Virus record (IMG/VR): IMGVR_UViG_3300017966_000002
Span: 1-47,130 of that record
DNA from: a virus
DNA length: 47,130 bases
Reading direction: 5' to 3' (one strand)
The translations under genes and the position numbers were made by a program. Position 1 is the stretch's first letter, and every line of letters starts with the position of its first letter. The notes under the pieces are model-generated. The model saw only the letters and a list, made by a program, of their open reading frames with translations, was not told the origin of the DNA and made no database searches. Positions 5,134-30,677 of the stretch are shown here, in pieces.

Positions 5134-6233
5134 ATAAGAGGTACATGGTCCCCGGACCCTTTCACGGCATTGTGAGTGATCTACCTTCAGCCTCAGATAG
5201 GCAAGCTTTTGATGATTGCTTGAATTTACTGTGCAGGAAAGGGAGATTAATTTCTCGCCCTAACTTAAACAACAACATTAGCCTATCTCCTGATGGAACT
5301 CCTATTTTAGGTTTACGTTCCTTTCAAGATGCTAATGGACACTATCACACCTGTGCAATGACAGCGACTCAGGTTTATGATTTAGTTACTCATATATTAC
5401 CTCCACACTTTACTTGGTCAATAGAAACTAATACCGTAGGGAGTTTAGGTACTAGAACCAATTTACCTTACTCTATCCTCAACGTTAACAATCGTTTATA
5501 CGTTGCCAACGCTTCCGGCTTTCTATTTTACATTGAGGGCTCAGGTACCCTTAACATTTCAGGCGATACTCCTGGAAGTCCTCTCTTTTTAACTAGCAAC
5601 GCGAGCCATCTTATTGGGGCAGCGTGGTATGAAATAACTGCAAGCGGGAACAATAAAAACTTTTACGGAAATAAAGTTAGATGGTCGGATGTAGGTAACT
5701 TTGATTCTTGGGCTATAAGTGCTAGTAGTACTGCAGGTGTAGCATATATTCAAGAAACTCCTGATACTATTACGGGTCTCACAAATCTTAATACTTATAC
5801 CTACATCACGCGCTCTAACGGTTTTAGTGTAATGTATCCTACAGGAGTTTCTACTAAACCCTTTATGATTGAGCCACTTTCGGTGTCACTTGAGGGAGCA
5901 GGTAACTATTACCCTTATAGCTTAGATAGTAACGGTAATTATTTCTGTTGTATAGCGCAACACGAAATCCTAATGTTTGATGGTACAAATTGGAATCCTT
6001 TAGGATTTAAGAAGGCTAAAAGTTCTATATTTAAAGATATCAACTTAGCTACTGGCCCTATAAGCGGAAAATGTATAACTACCTTTAATGAAACCTTTGA
6101 CTTTGAATCTTATTGGTTGACTATTCCAGGGCCCAATGTAACCTGGATTTATGGAGTGGAAGAAGGTAATTGGACTCGTATCAATAGCAGTTTAGGGGCG
6201 TTGACATCTTTAGCTCACGTATATTTGAGGTAA
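5130..6233 (+). CDS. Tail hub / DNA-stabilisation protein (P22 gp10-like)
   Basis: 367 aa. The start 'MVPGPFHGIVSDLPSAS...DCLNLL' and repeated short beta-strand motifs resemble beta-propeller tail hub proteins of podoviruses, which plug the tail after DNA packaging. Late motifs such as 'MFDGTNWNPLG' fit the same family. The start overlaps the lysozyme stop by 4 bases. The family match is from general sequence character; a distant tail tubular protein B is the alternative. Confidence 0.6.
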   Translation: MNKRYMVPGPFHGIVSDLPSASDRQAFDDCLNLLCRKGRLISRPNLNNNISLSPDGTPILGLRSFQDANGHYHTCAMTATQVYDLVTHILPPHFTWSIETNTVGSLGTRTNLPYSILNVNNRLYVANASGFLFYIEGSGTLNISGDTPGSPLFLTSNASHLIGAAWYEITASGNNKNFYGNKVRWSDVGNFDSWAISASSTAGVAYIQETPDTITGLTNLNTYTYITRSNGFSVMYPTGVSTKPFMIEPLSVSLEGAGNYYPYSLDSNGNYFCCIAQHEILMFDGTNWNPLGFKKAKSSIFKDINLATGPISGKCITTFNETFDFESYWLTIPGPNVTWIYGVEEGNWTRINSSLGALTSLAHVYLR

Positions 6234-21368: not shown

Positions 21369-23825
21369 TTATAAACGTTGTTTGAATTTCTCCAAAGTAA
21401 CCCCAGTGCCCCAGTTTGACCCCACTTTAACCTCACAGGGGATCCAGTAACCATTTAACTGGGGTATAGGAGACTGTAGCGTTGTTTCTACGAACTCTGC
21501 GAGCTGTATTGCTCTACGAGGGTCTTTGGCTCCTCCATGACAGTTGAGAATGACAGAGTCATGGACACTGAAATAAAGCCGTGTCCGTTCTCCCCAATAG
21601 CCTGCTTTAAAGCTTGCATCGAGGGGAAGCAGGGCATTATTGATGAGTACATCAACTGCGGTAGTTTGTCCAGGGAATGCCATGATATCGTTTCGTTGAC
21701 CTTGAGGATTAGGGAATTGGCGAGATCTTCCAAAGGCAGTGTAGAGAATTCTTTGCCTGGTAGCTTCAAATATAAGCCTACGATGATAGACTCCGATTTC
21801 GGGATAGTCACGGTGGTATTTGTCATATATCGCCTTTGCTTTTTGATCGGTTATAGGGAGGCTGAGTTCCTTAGGTTTTGGAATTCCACGGCCGTAGGTA
21901 AAGCCGAGTGGCCACGATTTTGCCACAAGAAGCTTCCAAGGTGGAACGTCGAGTTTATTGGATTTAGTGGGTTTGGCTCCCTGCTTGAAAAAGGGTTCTC
22001 CCCACACATCTTCGTAGAAGTAACCGTAAACGTAGATGCCTTCCTCTTTAATCTGCATTAACTTTTCGCATTTGGCGTACCAGGCATAAAGCCAAAATTC
22101 GATCTGGGAGAAGTCAGCACTAATGATGCAGTCATCAGGATGTTCGGGGATGATACAGGTTCGGGGATTGATCCCTATAAGCTCTTCGGAAATCTGCTGT
22201 ACGTTACGATTGACGCATTGGATTCTACCACCAACCTGTCCATGTATCTTTGCGCGGGTATGGAGGCGGGAATCGGAGGCCTGTAATTCAACCTGCTCCG
22301 AGGCTTTTTTCAACCTTCTCATCTCGAGGATGAGGTGTGCGGTCTTATTCCCCTTCTTAGCTATCTCCTCCAACACTTCTTCATCCATTGAAGGAGTCTT
22401 GGTAGTGATTTTATTTCCTTCTTTATCCCGCTTCGTACGCTGCCTCATTTGAGGTTTAAACCCCATTGCGGAGAACATTTCAAGCAGCTGTTTTGGAGAG
22501 CTCCAGGAGAACTGCGGGATGTTTTCCTCCCACCAATCGGAATACTTCTGCAGCCCGAGTTGGAAGGCGAGGAAGTATTTCCCACTCAGGTCGCAGTCGT
22601 AGTTGGAACCTTTGGTGCGCCAGTCGCACGTAACATCAATTAGCTTATTGAGCGTGCGGAAGACCTCAATCTGGCTGACTGCAGTGCCAGCAATCGAAGT
22701 CCTCGCTTCATCCAACTCTTTCCAGAGAATCTCACCCCCTTCCAATACACCGAAGGTGTCGTAGGTATTATAGAGATCGGGTTGGGTCTTTCGAAGGTTC
22801 TTGTGGTATGGAACATTGGTGTAGATAGAACACATCGTCGCGAGGTCTTTACGTTTGAGGTGCGACCAACGGAGGTGGAGGGCAAGCATCGCGTCGCACT
22901 TTTCAACGCCGCTGAAGTCAAATTTCTTCCCAAGGTGGAAGAAATCAAATCCACCATTATATGCCCAAACTCTCGGGCGAGTTTCTCTCGGTTTTCCCAA
23001 GAGAGGGCGTAAAAGTTCAAGCTGGTCCTGAGCCACTCCAATCGCTTCACCGATTCTTGTAGACAGGCCGACAACTTCAATGGGTGTTTCAATGATCTCG
23101 TCCATCTCGTCGTCAGGAAGGGATTCTGGGGTTTCGATATCAAGGCCGAAGGCCTCCGAATTCGCACATTCCTCCGCATACTCTATCACCTCCGCTGTTG
23201 TTGGATTGTAGTTAAAATGCACTGGGGACAGATGCCGGGTGCCGTTGGCAAAGCCTCCCGCCTTGGCAACGTCGGCTTCGAAGAGTGGAGATACCATGAA
23301 CCCAGTGCGCATAACGAAAGAAGGGTGAAAAGTACCAATGACGATAGGAGAGTCGCAATCAGTAATGCAACCGGAGAGGGGATAGGGAGCACCTCTAAGC
23401 CACGCATTAGGATCGTTTTCCATCGACTTCCGGTTGTGTTCAAGGGCGAGGTGTTTGGGGGAGCAAAAAGAGTTAAAGGCCTCTTGCCCCAATGCCAGAT
23501 ACGCTCGAGGTGAAGTTCCATTGAGTTCCCTTTCAAGAAGGGGTCGGCAGTGTTCGACCGCTCCCTTCGGTACGGGTTGTCCTGGGGGAACGAAACACTT
23601 AACAACGTTGGTGATTAGGTTGGTGGATCGCATGATTCCTGCGTGGCGTAGGGCGGAGTCGAGTACGTTGCCACTTGAGCCGCAGAATGGGCGACCCTGC
23701 TGGATTTCCGTGGGACCTGGGTTTTGACCTATGATTACGAGTTCAGGATGGCTAGAACCCTCGCCCCAAACAGGCCCAGCAGCCCCTTCCAAGGGGCAAC
23801 CTTTACAACTGGGAGGTTTCATCAC
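21369..23825 (-). CDS. DNA polymerase: uracil-DNA-glycosylase domain + 3'-5' exonuclease + family A polymerase
   Basis: 818 aa (GTG 23825; ATG 23822 is one codon later, with an AAGGAGGG site). Residues 1-190 are a family-4-type UDG: cysteines 7, 10, 77 and 93 for a 4Fe-4S cluster, motif GQNPG (33-37), GRPF, and HPSF (167-170). The exonuclease follows: DIE (229-231), N290/D294 and Y352-x3-D356. The polymerase has motif A DFSQIE (571-576), motif B K636-x7-YG and motif C VHDS (754-757). The residue matching E. coli Pol I Phe762 is Leu640. SPO1 polymerase has a comparable UDG fusion. It is the replicative polymerase. Confidence 0.95.
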   Translation of the reverse strand: MMKPPSCKGCPLEGAAGPVWGEGSSHPELVIIGQNPGPTEIQQGRPFCGSSGNVLDSALRHAGIMRSTNLITNVVKCFVPPGQPVPKGAVEHCRPLLERELNGTSPRAYLALGQEAFNSFCSPKHLALEHNRKSMENDPNAWLRGAPYPLSGCITDCDSPIVIGTFHPSFVMRTGFMVSPLFEADVAKAGGFANGTRHLSPVHFNYNPTTAEVIEYAEECANSEAFGLDIETPESLPDDEMDEIIETPIEVVGLSTRIGEAIGVAQDQLELLRPLLGKPRETRPRVWAYNGGFDFFHLGKKFDFSGVEKCDAMLALHLRWSHLKRKDLATMCSIYTNVPYHKNLRKTQPDLYNTYDTFGVLEGGEILWKELDEARTSIAGTAVSQIEVFRTLNKLIDVTCDWRTKGSNYDCDLSGKYFLAFQLGLQKYSDWWEENIPQFSWSSPKQLLEMFSAMGFKPQMRQRTKRDKEGNKITTKTPSMDEEVLEEIAKKGNKTAHLILEMRRLKKASEQVELQASDSRLHTRAKIHGQVGGRIQCVNRNVQQISEELIGINPRTCIIPEHPDDCIISADFSQIEFWLYAWYAKCEKLMQIKEEGIYVYGYFYEDVWGEPFFKQGAKPTKSNKLDVPPWKLLVAKSWPLGFTYGRGIPKPKELSLPITDQKAKAIYDKYHRDYPEIGVYHRRLIFEATRQRILYTAFGRSRQFPNPQGQRNDIMAFPGQTTAVDVLINNALLPLDASFKAGYWGERTRLYFSVHDSVILNCHGGAKDPRRAIQLAEFVETTLQSPIPQLNGYWIPCEVKVGSNWGTGVTLEKFKQRL

Positions 23826-24367
23826 TTCCCTCCTTGAACAAGTTGCAGGAAACGATCTTGATACGCGGGCTCCATTTTAAACTTCCCGCTGTAGTTGTAG
23901 GTGATCACATCCCCACGGGTCTTGACGCCTCGGCATTGCATGCACCCGTGAGTTCCGCGAACCTTAATCGCTACGCCTCGGTTATCAGGGAGGTATTTAT
24001 CCATCTCCTCTACCGCTGCGATGGTGAACTTTTCTTGCATAACGGGTCCCGTGTTGATATTATCGAGAAGACGCACCAATTTAGAGAGACCAAGAACAGA
24101 AGCCCCAGGGAAATAAGCGAGATCAACGGTGAGCTCGACTTGAAATAAATGGTGAGGGCATAGAGTGTGTAGCATATGGCCGCGCAACAATACCATATCC
24201 ACATACTTCTCCTCAAACGTAGTGAAAGAGTTTTTCTTAACACCAAACATCTCCTCCATTGCTTTCGCATACCGCTTCGGGGTATCAGCGAAGTTTTGGT
24301 CCGTGAGATCGCATCCCATCCCCTCGAGGACGAGCTTAATTCCGCTTTCGATTTTACTTTTGTCCAC
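23822..24367 (-). CDS. folE: GTP cyclohydrolase I (FolE), first step of preQ0 synthesis
   Basis: 181 aa from GTG 24367 (GGGAG upstream); a longer TTG start at 24400 would overlap the next gene more. It converts GTP to dihydroneopterin triphosphate, which QueD uses. Zinc ligands are visible: Cys70 and His73 in LCPHH, and Cys142 in HGCMQCRGV. 'KLVRLLDN' and the T-fold 'VRGTHGCM' match the family. The usual CEHH is CPHH here. The stop overlaps the DNA polymerase start. Confidence 0.92.
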   Translation of the reverse strand: MDKSKIESGIKLVLEGMGCDLTDQNFADTPKRYAKAMEEMFGVKKNSFTTFEEKYVDMVLLRGHMLHTLCPHHLFQVELTVDLAYFPGASVLGLSKLVRLLDNINTGPVMQEKFTIAAVEEMDKYLPDNRGVAIKVRGTHGCMQCRGVKTRGDVITYNYSGKFKMEPAYQDRFLQLVQGGK

Positions 24368-24641
24368 CTTGCAGCTCCCGTTCGCGATGTTCGATTTCAA
24401 AGTCGATGTATTTGCGGGCTTTTTGAAGGTCTTCTAATATATCAGAATCCTTTTTACCGTCGCGGTAGATGTATTTAAGTACATTACCAAGGGCGAAGTT
24501 AAGACCCCAAGCTTGGATTACCTTTATCGGTTCATAAAGGCTATCGCCACCGTAGTGAGCGGGGTGGTTAATTACTTCGTCTACCTTTGCCTGCCCTATC
24601 TGCCCTGTCAAACCAGATCTGTAACTCTCTTGATCTTTCAT
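24354..24641 (-). CDS. DUF3310 protein
   Basis: 95 aa with a GGAGGAGGAA site before the ATG. The signature 'NHPAHYGGDSLYEPIKVIQAW..NFALGNVLKYIYRDGKK' is that of DUF3310, a small phage protein often called a nucleotide-kinase-like protein without biochemical proof. It overlaps folE and, by 74 bases in another frame, the gene upstream. Confidence 0.9.
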   Translation of the reverse strand: MKDQESYRSGLTGQIGQAKVDEVINHPAHYGGDSLYEPIKVIQAWGLNFALGNVLKYIYRDGKKDSDILEDLQKARKYIDFEIEHRERELQGGQK

Positions 24642-24919: not shown

Positions 24920-25114
24920 TTACCTCCAAGGACTCTCTGCTTCCAACTGGGCATAACGTAACATGCCTATAGCTTCGTGGCGGGTAGTATTAGCCTTCAC
25001 GCAGATAATGTCCTTTTGCACGTAAATGATAACTACCTTACGTGCAGGATCCTCTGCTATATCAGCTAACACTTCCATTATAAGATCTTCTGCGGTTTGA
25101 GGTTCATCTTCCAT
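24920..25114 (-). CDS. Small acidic hypothetical protein
   Basis: 64 aa from ATG 25114, in TAATG overlap with the queE stop and with GGGTGG upstream. 'ARKVVIIYVQKDIICVKAN' forms beta strands. The function is unknown. Confidence 0.6.
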   Translation of the reverse strand: MEDEPQTAEDLIMEVLADIAEDPARKVVIIYVQKDIICVKANTTRHEAIGMLRYAQLEAESPWR

Positions 25115-25815
25115 TATTTCCACCCATAAACTTTATGTATTTGAGCGTTGAATTTCCAGTTGGGATGATCTTCCAACAACTTCATACAAAGCCTCATAAC
25201 TTCGGAGTCGTGATTGAGTGCCTGGATATCGTTTACTGGACTCACGTAAACGTTAGGGTGAATGAGGACTTCCTTTGGAAGATAAAGAGGGTTGAAGTTT
25301 GAGGTGATGATCAGGCGCACTTCATCCGCTCTCGATATCATTGTGGGTTTCACTCCCAGCTTCGGACTCACAGTTAGGTAAACATAAAGCGGAGGAAACC
25401 CCGCAATAGTACCAGAGGTTTCAACATGAGTTTTAATGTCAGAATTTCCCATTTTCTTGAAAAATGCTTCACGACGCAGGGTTTCGAGATGGATGAAAGG
25501 CTCACCTCCAGTAAGACAAACATGCTCTACGCCTTCATGAACGGCTCGTTTTACCAATTGTTCCACCGACCACCATTCCTTCAACTGGAAGTCGGTATCG
25601 CAGATAAAATCCCGACCGTCCCATGAACGACATTTATAAGCTGTGTGACCATTATCATGTAAAATTGGTAAAGGGGATATAACAGGATTTGAGGTAGGTT
25701 TTCCTACAGAACAACCCGCCAGTCGAACGAACATCATACGTGTACCTGCCCAGGACCCTTCACCGTGAATAGACGTGAATACTTCTGCGACAGGTAATAA
25801 AGATTTCTTATCCAT
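25114..25815 (-). CDS. queE: 7-carboxy-7-deazaguanine synthase QueE (radical SAM)
   Basis: 233 aa from ATG 25815 (GGATGG upstream); longer starts at 25830 (ATG) and 25872 (GTG) are possible, but the latter lies in a hairpin. 'VAEVFTSIHGEGSWAGTRMMFVRLAGC' is the QueE start, 'CDTDF' the end of its cluster motif, and 'CLTGGEPFIH' and 'HVETSGT' the GGE and SAM regions. It converts carboxytetrahydropterin to CDG. Cluster cysteines would be Cys35, Cys62 and Cys72, a C-x26-C-x9-C spacing that differs from the usual CxxxCxxC and C-x14-C-x2-C forms. Confidence 0.9.
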   Translation of the reverse strand: MDKKSLLPVAEVFTSIHGEGSWAGTRMMFVRLAGCSVGKPTSNPVISPLPILHDNGHTAYKCRSWDGRDFICDTDFQLKEWWSVEQLVKRAVHEGVEHVCLTGGEPFIHLETLRREAFFKKMGNSDIKTHVETSGTIAGFPPLYVYLTVSPKLGVKPTMISRADEVRLIITSNFNPLYLPKEVLIHPNVYVSPVNDIQALNHDSEVMRLCMKLLEDHPNWKFNAQIHKVYGWK

Positions 25816-25840
25816 AAGGATACCATCCATAAAGTGTAAG

Positions 25841-25880
25841 GTTAATGGGTGGGCTCGGAAGCGGGAACCCACCCGTTAAG
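25841..25880. promoter_or_regulatory. Hairpin upstream of queE
   Basis: GGGTGGG (25847-25853) pairs with CCCACCC (25868-25874), extended by TTAA/TTAA after one mismatch. It lies in the queE leader, 26 bases before the preferred ATG. No T-tract follows it, so it may tune translation or transcript stability. No preQ1 riboswitch consensus is visible. Confidence 0.4.
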
Positions 25881-25912: not shown

Positions 25913-25999
25913 TTATTTCTTAGCTGGCTTCTTGCCGCCCTTCTTCGGTTCCTTCTTCATTGCTTCTTTTTCCTTCTTGCTGTAAGGTTTGCCTGGCAT
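25913..25999 (-). CDS. 28-aa Lys-rich peptide overlapping the end of queD
   Basis: The peptide starts MPGKPYSKKEKEAMKK and ends in a KKPAKK tail. It is read in a different frame from queD, with an AAGGAGA site 8-9 bases before ATG 25999. It is very basic and may bind nucleic acid. A longer reading of the frame upstream has no coding character. Confidence 0.5.
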   Translation of the reverse strand: MPGKPYSKKEKEAMKKEPKKGGKKPAKK

Positions 26000-26519
26000 T
26001 TCGGAGTTCTCCTTTCTCGCGCTCACGCTCTGCGCGGAGATCAACTTCAATCGTGTATTCTTCCCAAGTGAGGGAGGCGGAGCAGGTACAGGTTTCTGAG
26101 AGGGAGAGAGTGGACCACTCGAGTTGAGGGGCGTGGATGGAAAGCCAATCTGCGAAGACATAGAGAAGGTTTTCGGAGGTGGGCTCCCAAACTGCAGCTC
26201 GAACCCAAGTTCCTACATCTTCAGAACCAAATTCAGCTTGATCTATCCACCACCGTATAACGGGGGAGGTGAGTGTTGAACCTCCCAAATTGTAATCTAG
26301 GTGAGAGTGAGACCCCAAATGCCAGTGATCCAACCCCTCGATCATCGGATCAACGGCAGCTTTGATATCACGGTAGTTGATCACGATGCCGTGATTATCC
26401 CGGAGACCTTCAACCTCAACCGTTAACTTCCATGAGTGGCCATGTAACCGGCGACACTTCCCCGGATCATGTTGCAGTTGATGCGATGCCTCAAACCTAA
26501 ACTCCTTAGATAAAATCAT
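25920..26519 (-). CDS. queD: 6-carboxy-tetrahydropterin synthase QueD
   Basis: 199 aa, longer than the usual ~120. Zinc and catalytic residues are clear: His13, Cys22, His26 and His28 in 'ASHQLQHDPGKCRRLHGHSW'. 'GIVINYRDIK' and 'LDHWHLG' follow the family, and 'PTSENL' and 'SETCTCS' the C-terminal T-fold. It makes carboxytetrahydropterin from the FolE product. The last ~40 residues are charged and overlap a small gene. The start overlaps the previous stop (ATGA). Confidence 0.93.
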   Translation of the reverse strand: MILSKEFRFEASHQLQHDPGKCRRLHGHSWKLTVEVEGLRDNHGIVINYRDIKAAVDPMIEGLDHWHLGSHSHLDYNLGGSTLTSPVIRWWIDQAEFGSEDVGTWVRAAVWEPTSENLLYVFADWLSIHAPQLEWSTLSLSETCTCSASLTWEEYTIEVDLRAEREREKGELRNARQTLQQEGKRSNEEGTEEGRQEAS

Positions 26520-26893: not shown

Positions 26894-27301
26894 TTACCGA
26901 CGCCGACGAGCGGGACCGTCGCTAAGAGATTTGAGAGACCAGGAAGGGATTTTTACCTGATCCTGACCGTTGTATTTTTCATGCTCCACGTTACAGTACA
27001 GCTCCATGTCAATGATGGATTCGGGATCGTGACCTTCTGGACCTGGTTCGTATCCAACTGCTTTGTACACCGATTTGAGATTGCCCAAGGCCCCTGGTTT
27101 CAACGAGGCGAAGTAGAGAAGGGTACGCCCAAATACCTCTCCCTCATCCTGAATCTTGAAGGTGAATACCACCATCGGTTCACCGCTGTTCTTGGATTCT
27201 TTCTCTTCCGCCTTCGAAATACGGACGTGGTAGCCTTCTTTTGCGGGTACGAGATCCGTAATTGAAGAAACCTGGGACATATCATCTGTGTGTAGTGCCA
27301 T
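26894..27301 (-). CDS. DUF669-like single-strand-DNA-associated protein
   Basis: 135 aa with an AAGGAG site. 'LVPAKEGYHVRISKAEEKESKNSG' followed by 'MVVFTFKIQDEG' and 'LGNLKSVYKAVGY' resembles DUF669, a family encoded beside Sak4-like ATPases and PD-(D/E)XK nucleases in phages and thought to aid recombination or replication, perhaps by binding ssDNA. The basic tail RRRR ends the protein. It sits close to the RecA-like ATPase. Confidence 0.7.
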   Translation of the reverse strand: MALHTDDMSQVSSITDLVPAKEGYHVRISKAEEKESKNSGEPMVVFTFKIQDEGEVFGRTLLYFASLKPGALGNLKSVYKAVGYEPGPEGHDPESIIDMELYCNVEHEKYNGQDQVKIPSWSLKSLSDGPARRRR

Positions 27302-27336: not shown

Positions 27337-27558
27337 TTACCTTTGCTGCTGTTGCAGTTGCTTCCGCCTGCGGATAACTGAAGTTATCGCGCGTTGAAGA
27401 AGGTTGTTGGAAATGGATTCTGCTTGGCTACCGGCCACATCATATTGAAATTTATCGGTAGAGGCAGTCCGCTGGCCGTCTGCTGTCTCAAGCTGCGAGA
27501 CGATGGTGAGGAAGGGCCAGCGTGAGTCGTCGATGGAAATTGTTATTCTCGCAGGCAT
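27337..27558 (-). CDS. Small hypothetical protein
   Basis: 73 aa with a beta-strand start ('ARITISIDDSRWPFLTIVSQL') and a basic Gln/Arg-rich tail. The site before ATG 27558 is weak, so expression may depend on coupling. No family is recognised. Confidence 0.5.
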   Translation of the reverse strand: MPARITISIDDSRWPFLTIVSQLETADGQRTASTDKFQYDVAGSQAESISNNLLQRAITSVIRRRKQLQQQQR

Positions 27559-27562
27559 AGGG

Positions 27563-27610
27563 TTAGTTGTCCTCGGTTAGGTCGTCGTCTTCTTGACTGA
27601 TTTCAGGCAT
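27563..27610 (-). CDS. Possible 15-aa acidic leader peptide
   Basis: ATG 27610 overlaps the stop of the RecA-like ATPase gene (TAATG) and has GGAGGAG about 8 bases upstream. The peptide is MPEISQEDDDLTEDN. It may only re-start ribosomes for the next gene. Confidence 0.25.
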   Translation of the reverse strand: MPEISQEDDDLTEDN

Positions 27611-28377
27611 TAGAAACACTCCTCCACAAGACGGAGGAATTCATTATAATCCCCTCCATCTTCCACGTTGATTGATTTGATTACATCGATCTCCCCATTA
27701 GATGCCTTGGTCTCTTTGTTGATGGAATCCGAGCCAAGGTCGAGATCGAATATGCGAATAGGGCGAGGGAAGGTGAGTAGAGATCGCGTTTTCCCTATGC
27801 CAAATGCCCCGTACAATATCCATATATAGGGATCATTCCAATCGCAGTTAGGGTTAGCCATTGCGAGTTTTCGGACTTCTTCATAGGAAGAAGGGAGCAT
27901 TCCACCCGCGATAGCAGGAGCGTTGAACCGATCTTTGACTTCCCAGTAATCGGTTCCACCTCCACCCCCAATTGCCTCCCGCCTCGCGACCCAGGTTACC
28001 TTGCCGTTAACGTAGCGGACGTGGAATACGTTATCAGCTGCGCGGCACATTTCATCTGGCGTGCGGGAACCGGGAAAATCAGGCCAGCCCTTTACCGCAA
28101 TGGGTTCAGTGGGAGCTTGACCTCGTTGTGCGATCATTCCCCCTCGTGCGAAAACTTTCTGTAGGTCTTCGTGTGCGAGGAAGACTACATTGACCCCTTT
28201 GTTACGCAGGTTTTTCATTCGACGGATGAGGATGTTCAGGCGTTCGGTAACGTCAGCGTAGTCTTGAACGCCTCGGATTTTATCCATATCGGCACCCGTC
28301 TTCCCGATTTTTTTACTGAAGAAGAGGCGGGCCAGCTCGGAGCCGGAGTCAAAGGCCACTGTGGCGAATTTAGGCAT
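27610..28377 (-). CDS. RecA-like (Sak4/AAA_24-type) ATPase with circularly permuted domain order
   Basis: 255 aa. Residues 4-11 'FATVAFDS' are the Walker B strand and 'GVNVVFLAHE' (61-70) the sensor strand. 'WEVKDRF' (145-151) normally ends the family. Only then comes the Walker A GAFGIGKT (190-197) with 'PIRIFDLDLGSDSI' (206-219), which normally opens it. In usual Sak4-like proteins Walker A is N-terminal, so the two halves are swapped. ATG 28377 has GGAGG 6 bases upstream and overlaps the preceding stop, so the frame is real. Role: recombination/annealing ATPase. Linking the C-terminus (VEECF) to the N-terminus (PKFATVAFD) restores the canonical order. Confidence 0.85.
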   Translation of the reverse strand: MPKFATVAFDSGSELARLFFSKKIGKTGADMDKIRGVQDYADVTERLNILIRRMKNLRNKGVNVVFLAHEDLQKVFARGGMIAQRGQAPTEPIAVKGWPDFPGSRTPDEMCRAADNVFHVRYVNGKVTWVARREAIGGGGGTDYWEVKDRFNAPAIAGGMLPSSYEEVRKLAMANPNCDWNDPYIWILYGAFGIGKTRSLLTFPRPIRIFDLDLGSDSINKETKASNGEIDVIKSINVEDGGDYNEFLRLVEECF

Positions 28378-28651
28378 TCGAAGCCTCCATATAATCTTGA
28401 GGGTACATGAAAACTGTACGTCTCCCCTTTACCCACTGCCCCTCAAAAAAGTCTTCTTCACCTCGATACACAGCATCTGAATGCTCTGCGTAGCTTTGGA
28501 CTCCAGGGCAGTGGGTGGTTAGAGAGCCTTCATATAAACCGCAGCGCGAGCAGGCAGTTAAACCTCCCTCACAGATAGGGCAATATAACTGCCTACAGTG
28601 CTTGTGCTCAACTGCAATATGTCCACTTTCCTTCCACCATTCTTTAGCCAT
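28370..28651 (-). CDS. Zinc-ribbon protein
   Basis: 93 aa from ATG 28651, overlapping the queC stop by 8 bases. 'YCPICEGGLTACSRCGLYEGSLTTHCPG' is a conserved phage zinc-ribbon pattern with CxxC pairs and a terminal CPG. The function is unknown. It directly precedes the permuted ATPase and overlaps its start. Confidence 0.7.
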   Translation of the reverse strand: MAKEWWKESGHIAVEHKHCRQLYCPICEGGLTACSRCGLYEGSLTTHCPGVQSYAEHSDAVYRGEEDFFEGQWVKGRRTVFMYPQDYMEASNA

Positions 28652-29357
28652 TGCACACCGTCTTCCAATACGTGGGGTCCTCATACTCCGTAGGATCTGT
28701 TACCCCTGCAAGATGGAAGGCCTCCGCTCTCTCAACACAAGTGGCACAACGCCCGCAGTGCTTGTCCCCACCTTTGTAACAAGACCAAGTTAGGTTCATG
28801 GGAGCGTGGTAAATATCACCCCACTTAACAATATCGCTTTTGGTTTTGTTGATGAAGGGGGTCTGTAGCTTAATCACGGTGTCAAGAGCCGTCGTTTCCA
28901 TCCCCTCAAACTGGGTGATGAATTGAGGGCGGCAATCGGGGTAGATTGCGTGATCCCCGGCATGCATTCCAGCCCACACCGAATCAGCTCCAATATTCAT
29001 TGCATAACCATAAGCAATGGAGAGCATGATGGCGTTACGATTAGGGACCACAGTTACCTTCATATTTTCGGAGGTGTAGTGACCTTCGGGGACCTGTATC
29101 CTGCTATTGGTGAGAGCGGAGTTACTGACCAGCTTCACGATCGAAGCTATGTCGACGATTTCATGCTTGATGCCGTAGTACCGAGCGATTTCAGTAGCAT
29201 GTTGCAGTTCAACTGCGTGACGTTGACCGTAGAAGAAGGAGAGAGCGTGAGCGTTATAATGATGCCGCACAGCTATAGCCAAGGCTACAGTGCTGTCGAG
29301 ACCTCCACTTAATATCACAACGGCTTTGGGTAAGGGAGAGTTAATATTACTTTCCAA
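28644..29357 (-). CDS. queC: 7-cyano-7-deazaguanine synthase QueC
   Basis: 237 aa from TTG 29357, with AGGAGGAAACCA upstream. The PP-loop SGGLDST (17-23), 'VPNRNAIMLSIAYGYA', 'GDHAIYPDCRP' and the zinc site 'CYKGGDKHCGRCATC' are all intact. It converts CDG to preQ0 with ATP and ammonia. It is the last enzyme of the pathway to preQ0. No amidotransferase (Gat) extension is fused. Confidence 0.96.
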   Translation of the reverse strand: MESNINSPLPKAVVILSGGLDSTVALAIAVRHHYNAHALSFFYGQRHAVELQHATEIARYYGIKHEIVDIASIVKLVSNSALTNSRIQVPEGHYTSENMKVTVVPNRNAIMLSIAYGYAMNIGADSVWAGMHAGDHAIYPDCRPQFITQFEGMETTALDTVIKLQTPFINKTKSDIVKWGDIYHAPMNLTWSCYKGGDKHCGRCATCVERAEAFHLAGVTDPTEYEDPTYWKTVCNG

Positions 29358-30420
29358 TGGTTTCCTCCTGTTGTTTGATTTCGAACTCTTCGAGTTCCTT
29401 GAGTAAGCTTTCGGACATATTGGGGAGGTTTGCCCAGCTGACCCCTCGATCCTTAAGCGTTTTATAGTATTCGTACTCGATATAGTCGAGTGAACGAACC
29501 TTGAACTCTTCCTCGTAGGGGCCCCGATGCTGGGAACAGAGATCGTAGAAATAGCACTTACGGTTGTACGCCATGCAGTTGGAACGGTCGTCGTAGATTA
29601 AGTCGTGCTGGAAGGCTGTTTCGTAGTCAATACAGCTCTTGATAAGGTTCGTTTCGAAGTGCGTGAGGTCTTCTTCAGTACGTATATAAGCCTCTCGTTC
29701 GAATCCAAGTCTATCAAGTGGATTTCCTTTGTACGCAGCATTTGGTTTCTTGATAACATTGAGCAAGAACCCATGAGGTCTCATCCCTGTTGATTTCCAT
29801 ATCCCGTACATATATCCAGTTGGCTGATCGTCGAGCATAAAACGTTGGTAAAATATATCCCCAGTCTGGGAGTTGGTTTTGTGCTCAAAGAGCCATACTG
29901 CTCCCTGCCATTGGATAATAGCATCGGTTTTTCCTTTAAAAGTGTGGGAAATGAAGCACCTAGGGTCGTTACAAGCCTCCGCCGTATAAGAAGGATTATC
30001 AGAGTGGAGAAGATTGTGCAAAAACCAACAATGGTGTTCTGTCCCAGGTAACTCAACCTTAAACTCCACCTCAGGCCAGATTACCTGGACCCCTCCTTCC
30101 CCATAATTATCCGCGAATAGGGCAACTGCCTTCCGTAACCACAAGACGTTGCGCTCGAAGAGATTTTGGTCTTCAGGTAGAATCATCACATCATTCTCCT
30201 TGAAATACTTCTCCGAGCGCGTGCGGTATTCCGCCTCTGCTACGTCTTGTGCTTTGGACACGCTACCAGAGCTGAATAGGGTAGCTGCGCCAAGATGAAA
30301 ACCCCCACCGAGGACCAAGGGATCAGCCTCCCTCCAAGCAGTGAGACGGTGGTTTTTTGAAAAGTTGTGCTTTACACGACAGCTTTTGAATTCCTTCATG
30401 CCGCTGAAGTTTGTAATCAT
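29347..30420 (-). CDS. PD-(D/E)XK exonuclease (RecB/Cas4-like)
   Basis: 357 aa from ATG 30420 (ATGA overlap with the upstream gene). The nuclease core is visible: Asp166 in 'GKTDAII', Glu179 and Lys181 in 'WLFEHKT', and Gln199 with Tyr203 in 'QPTGYMYGI'. Cys14 and the C-terminal 'CMAYNRKCYFYDLC' may hold an Fe-S cluster as in AddB/Cas4-like nucleases. Probably a recombination exonuclease acting with the RecA-like ATPase and DUF669-like protein. Confidence 0.8.
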   Translation of the reverse strand: MITNFSGMKEFKSCRVKHNFSKNHRLTAWREADPLVLGGGFHLGAATLFSSGSVSKAQDVAEAEYRTRSEKYFKENDVMILPEDQNLFERNVLWLRKAVALFADNYGEGGVQVIWPEVEFKVELPGTEHHCWFLHNLLHSDNPSYTAEACNDPRCFISHTFKGKTDAIIQWQGAVWLFEHKTNSQTGDIFYQRFMLDDQPTGYMYGIWKSTGMRPHGFLLNVIKKPNAAYKGNPLDRLGFEREAYIRTEEDLTHFETNLIKSCIDYETAFQHDLIYDDRSNCMAYNRKCYFYDLCSQHRGPYEEEFKVRSLDYIEYEYYKTLKDRGVSWANLPNMSESLLKELEEFEIKQQEETIGK

Positions 30421-30677
30421 TTTGTGATCCCCCAATGTTCTTTACCTTTAGACGTTAAACGACAACGTATTTCGGAGGATTGTTCATCAAGCTGGATTAA
30501 TTCTCCACATGTAAGCCATCCTTTAGATATACAATAATCAACAGCTTCAGCTTGGAATTGTTGGTGTCGAGAACGGATGATTACATAATCAGCTCCTTGA
30601 TGAAAAGCTTTAGCGGTACGCTCCTCGAATTCTTGCTCAATGGTTGCGAAACCGGGTGAAGGTTTAAGGTTACTCAC
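30417..30677 (-). CDS. Small winged-helix-like protein
   Basis: 86 aa. A helix region is followed by 'AVDYCISKGWLTCGELIQ' and 'CRLTSKGKEHWG', which resemble a winged helix-turn-helix end. The function is unknown. It overlaps both neighbours by 4 bases. Confidence 0.55.
   Translation of the reverse strand: MSNLKPSPGFATIEQEFEERTAKAFHQGADYVIIRSRHQQFQAEAVDYCISKGWLTCGELIQLDEQSSEIRCRLTSKGKEHWGITK

Follow-up and report, generated by a model that had tools for sequence, protein, structure and literature searches.

A Sak4-Like (AAA_24) ATPase with Circularly Permuted Segment Order in Uncultivated Bacterial Viruses

Sak4 Proteins and Permuted P-Loop NTPases

HK620 Sak4 has been described as a RecA-core, ATP-dependent annealer that is stimulated by the HK620 SSB (PMC5928155). 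In conventional phages the genes encoding a Cas4-type exonuclease, Sak4, and an SSB are found close together. Few permuted P-loop NTPases are known, and all that came up in the papers searched are GTPases. The motif order is G3-G4-G5-G1-G2 in cpRAS and G4-G5-G1-G2-G3 in the YRG/YlqF proteins (PMC2430557). For GTPases it was once argued that separating strand 2 from the Walker B strand by a cut would impair folding (PMC2430557). No permuted RecA-type recombinase or Sak4 was found in the open-access papers searched, and the first-pass annotation of the gene treated here also knew of no described natural permutation in the Sak4/AAA_24 family.

The gene is found in a viral stretch of 47,130 nucleotides (IMG/VR record IMGVR_UViG_3300017966_000002), below called the window. 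The encoded 255-aa protein has its segments, the Walker A and B motifs, the sensor strand, and the KDR segment in common with Sak4-like proteins (PHROG 124; HK620 Sak4, PMC5928155). As for these proteins, the size is around 250 aa and the gene lies beside those of a Cas4-type exonuclease and an SSB. Unlike in a conventional Sak4, the segment order is permuted, with the cut before the Walker B strand and the old chain ends joined by a linker. The window protein is about 20-30% identical to Sak4s of isolated phages. It is homologous to Sak4 and probably works like Sak4, although it lacks the linear order of that family.

The nearest precedent is cpRAS (PMC2430557). In this P-loop NTPase, too, the natural cut separates the second strand from the Walker B strand, and both proteins have the Walker B half first and the Walker A half last. 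However, cpRAS is a RAS-family GTPase domain within larger proteins, while the permuted Sak4 is a stand-alone RecA-type phage ATPase. The G4 (N/T)KxD guanine-specificity motif of cpRAS and other permuted GTPases is absent from the 255-aa window protein. The YRG/YlqF proteins are also stable natural permutations of a P-loop domain, but the cut is at another place and they belong to another class of NTPases.

The Permuted Gene

The reading frame is on the minus strand and starts with ATG. The gene and its parts are as follows:

27610..28377, minus strand: circularly permuted Sak4/AAA_24 ATPase gene, 255 aa, profile stretches out of order
28384..28388, minus strand: GGAGG ribosome-binding site, six bases 5' of the ATG, read from the sequence
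27919..28371, minus strand (codons 3-153): Walker B strand (residues 4-11), sensor strand (64-70), PG..DN segment, and WEVKDRF
27838..27918, minus strand (codons 154-180): new junction, composed of the old C-terminal helix LPSSYEEVRKLA and the short linker NPNCDW
27613..27837, minus strand (codons 181-255): P-loop strand, Walker A (residues 190-197), second strand, and helix

The start of the gene shares 8 bases (28370-28377) with the end of the upstream ORF, and its TAA stop codon overlaps the next ATG. In the protein, FATVAFDS is found at residues 4-11, VVFLAHE at 64-70, WEVKDRF at 145-151, and GAFGIGKT at 190-197. Codons 3-153 correspond to the C-terminal part of a conventional Sak4, here N-terminal (phrog_124 positions 108-236 against residues 3-152), and codons 181-255 to the N-terminal part, here C-terminal (phrog_124 41-92 is matched within it). 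The linker NPNCDW leads into the old N-terminus. Across the family LP..Y is conserved in the junction, and W-x-PPYIW is mostly conserved. The first-pass annotation, which gave no strand, had quoted these motifs, with residue positions for the first and the last, and had described a GGAGG site belonging to the gene as well as overlapping neighbours; all of these are found in the sequence.

Evidence for the Permutation

The whole protein matches AAA_24 (PF13479) with an E-value of 1.3e-12 and 48.4 bits, which is above the curated cut-off of 27, and phrog_124 (PHROG 124, Sak4-like ssDNA annealing protein) with 5e-21, far from anything that chance would give. Yet each of these profile matches is split into two stretches that come in reversed order. 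When the two parts are searched in isolation, residues 3-83 of the first 174 match AAA_24 positions 64-142, and residues 186-223 of the last 81 match positions 5-41; phrog_124 is matched at 108-236 by the first part and at 41-92 by the last.

A rotated version of the window protein, with the last 81 residues placed in front of the first 174, matches both profiles in a single colinear stretch, which the natural order does not. The score increases from 76.5 to 86.2 bits for phrog_124 and from 48.4 to 56.6 for AAA_24. Rotation of the relative L008 likewise gives a single colinear stretch, and the scores increase from 77.4 to 85.5 bits and from 53.2 to 62.3 bits, respectively. The same is seen when the 50,697 phage records of INPHARED are searched by tblastn using one cut-off for both orders. 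The window protein finds five records in its natural order (best E-value 0.1) and 231 when rotated (best 6e-4), while L008 finds 10 and 167. No match to the natural-order window query covers 80% of it.

Circular rotations in steps of three residues were further scored against a profile built from ten phage Sak4s of conventional order. The optimum was found at cuts around 159-180 in all eight permuted proteins scanned, and for the window protein the best domain score increased from 54.3 to 90.8 bits. Conventional Sak4s, used as leave-one-out controls, peak at or beside their own natural termini. Together, the scan and its controls imply that the two halves are complementary parts of one domain. 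The permuted segment order of the 255-aa protein is thus confirmed. The first-pass annotation had claimed swapped segments and a cut directly in front of the Walker B strand; the two reversed stretches become one upon rotation, the score rising in both libraries, and the optimum of the scan falls where the cut had been placed. Its reading of the gene as a permuted Sak4/AAA_24 ATPase was largely right.

Relatives and Conservation

The gene is carried by 13 other IMG/VR contigs, either in full or cut by the contig end, and each displays the swapped order for the part it carries. Hence the Walker A half precedes the Walker B half in none of the 14 contigs, as far as the carried part goes. The relatives (given L numbers here) are about 45-60% identical to the window protein or to L008 at the amino acid level; full-length members are about 53-60% identical to the window protein, and the partial L036 protein is 45% identical to L008. 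Every permuted member is a metagenome-derived virus contig, and the order could in principle have arisen from assembly or binning that joined gene pieces wrongly. This is hardly credible, since the 13 further contigs have different metagenome numbers, share the same junction at the above identities, and are independent of each other, which excludes an assembly error. The ribosome-binding site and the overlapping neighbours, from which the first-pass annotation had already argued against an assembly join, point the same way.

The full-length proteins are around 247-258 aa and hmmscan finds no extra domain, so they have the size of a RecA core only (about 220-280 aa, without the RecA C-terminal domain). 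Residues D10, S11, H69, E70, G190, G193, G195, K196, T197, and R198 are invariant in the 11 full-length proteins, and so are K148, R150, F151, and others. The KGWPD segment and the W-x-PPYIW linker are special to the permuted clade. For the pair L001-L003 dN/dS is 0.076, showing strong purifying selection on the gene in this pair; in most other pairs the silent sites are saturated. In L047 there is a frame change near residue 22 (about 5960-6000), which may be a sequencing error. It is the one observation that favours a degenerate, non-functional rearrangement product kept by chance. Such an origin is most improbable, as ten other full-length members are open at the lengths given and the dN/dS value is low, and it is largely refuted by the conservation of the gene.

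In the seven permuted records scanned, AAA_24 matches are confined to the permuted frame, and no second, conventional Sak4 is found. In each record for which both stretches are listed, that of Walker B is 5' to that of Walker A. Two further candidates, L049 and L050, were rejected, both being conventional Sak4s. Searches with the permuted protein found no close relatives in bacterial genomes, no match in plasmids, and nothing relevant among PDB sequences. In isolated phages, six members used as natural-order tblastn queries on INPHARED had no match that covered 80% of the query, and the match in BitterVaud1 falls in a 158-aa ORF.

Genomic Neighbourhood

The genes next to the permuted gene in the window are:

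26894..27301, minus strand: DUF669-type single-strand DNA-binding protein, probable partner (PF05037, E 5.2e-6; phrog_378, 1.4e-4)
27337..27558, minus strand: 73-aa conserved neighbour gene; similar small ORFs in relatives
28644..29357, minus strand: QueC, between the exonuclease and the permuted sak4 (PF06508, 1.1e-67)
29347..30435, minus strand: PDDEXK (Cas4/RecB-type) exonuclease of the recombination module (PF12705, 1.6e-7; phrog_1218 exonuclease, 2e-21)

According to profile searches, a PDDEXK exonuclease, a DNA polymerase, and an SSB of the DUF669 type are encoded in the same cluster as the permuted gene of the window. The same neighbours are found in relatives where checked, namely the PDDEXK nuclease, QueC, the DUF669 SSB, and QueD/QueE. 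Translations from L001, L003, L007, and L008 show exonuclease- and SSB-like ORFs in the same order, and small ORFs (67-74 aa) lie downstream of the permuted gene in L001, L003, L005, L007, L008, and L036.

The recombination module is surrounded by genes encoding FolE (23822-24400), QueE (25114-25872), QueD (25920-26519), and QueC (28644-29357), which suggests a 7-deazaguanine (preQ0-type) modification of the DNA. At 21369-23825 the window encodes a uracil-DNA-glycosylase domain (residues 21-175) fused to a family A DNA polymerase (438-806), and starts similar to this fusion are found in L007 and L008. Free-standing ORFs resembling LAGLIDADG homing endonucleases, with a GLFDGEG motif, lie beside the recombination genes in L005 (7526-8002) and L047 (5486-5962); the one in L005 has no Pfam match at an E-value of 0.01.

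Predicted Structure

AlphaFold2 predicts alternating strands and helices for the L008 protein when given ten natural sequences (pLDDT 79.5, pTM 0.80), with low confidence for residues 71-107. For the window protein, modelled from seven sequences, the values are 63.7 and 0.70. A single RecA fold is plausible for the permuted protein from these models. Foldseek against the PDB gave nothing at an E-value of 0.001. VIA-align listed no RecA-type recombinase, its matches reaching a Z-score of at most 7.4, to amino-acid-kinase folds; HerA (9c1m) is among the weak matches with a Z-score of 5.8. Both aligners seem sensitive to chain order and would be expected to miss a permuted fold, so these searches neither support nor refute a RecA fold. 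The BFVD model of a 248-aa viral protein, A0A516LUR7, aligns with the permuted model along the natural chain (E-value 6.3e-4, TM-score 0.40); it may be a further permuted Sak4, belonging to a named phage.

From the RecA topology, the old and the new chain ends would both lie at the face of the sheet opposite the nucleotide, which would account for the tolerance of the cut.

Proposed Function

The protein is very probably a naturally permuted Sak4 (AAA_24), and most likely an ATP-dependent ssDNA annealing recombinase acting with the DUF669 SSB and the PDDEXK exonuclease. The old C-terminus is joined by the short linker to the old N-terminus, and the new termini lie directly before the Walker B strand. 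Such a chain very likely adopts the standard RecA-type core, and its ATP site would be complete, consisting of the Walker A motif GxxGxGKT, the Walker B motif hhhhDS, and a sensor strand ending in His-Glu. The permuted Sak4 would then anneal ssDNA exposed by the exonuclease, in phage replication and recombination. We infer this job from the gene clustering with an exonuclease and an SSB as a conventional sak4 does; the fold, ATP hydrolysis, and annealing are deductions as well.

A less likely reading is that the protein has kept the fold and the ATP site but changed its job, for instance to a mediator or regulator that does not itself anneal DNA, with the new termini possibly altering subunit assembly. 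The long branch that sets the permuted clade apart and its special conserved segments, the W-x-PPYIW linker and KGWPD, are in keeping with such a change. So is the type of the partner SSB, since the DUF669 protein is without the acidic tail that HK620 SSB uses (PMC5928155), a difference that also counts against the annealing reading. However, the residues of the ATP site are invariant, none of the seven permuted records scanned encodes a second AAA_24 protein, and the permuted gene sits inside the exonuclease-SSB module. A working annealing recombinase is preferred.

Phylogeny and Origin

An unrooted maximum-likelihood tree was calculated from 11 permuted proteins in rotated order and 17 conventional ones. 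All permuted proteins are found on one side of a branch with support 97/96, present in 98% of the bootstrap trees, and several branches are long. The single permuted clade is consistent with one origin. The conventional segment order is the general one for the RecA-type core, and the permuted order is accordingly taken as derived.

By the classical route, a circular permutation results from a tandem duplication whose outer halves are later lost, and the permuted sak4 presumably arose in this way, as the first-pass annotation had proposed. An AAA_24 scan of the seven permuted records showed no third stretch that could be a relic of a duplicated copy beside the gene, and no duplication intermediate was found.

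Implications

The permuted sak4 is probably the first natural case of a circularly permuted RecA-type recombinase core to be described, resulting from one ancestral event in a lineage of tailed phages, with a working enzyme maintained for a long time and an assembly that may be rewired. If so, the RecA-type ATPase core tolerates the same cut as cpRAS, and the family would offer a natural way to ask which chain ends are important in folding and assembly. Elements usually at the termini, which could have a part in subunit assembly, would now be fused in the linker, and the chain ends would be at the Walker B strand. The family would also be a warning that annotation and fold searches depending on segment order can split or miss permuted proteins. 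A group of uncultivated bacterial viruses has kept a re-cut gene intact through long divergence, a rare natural experiment on an ancient fold.
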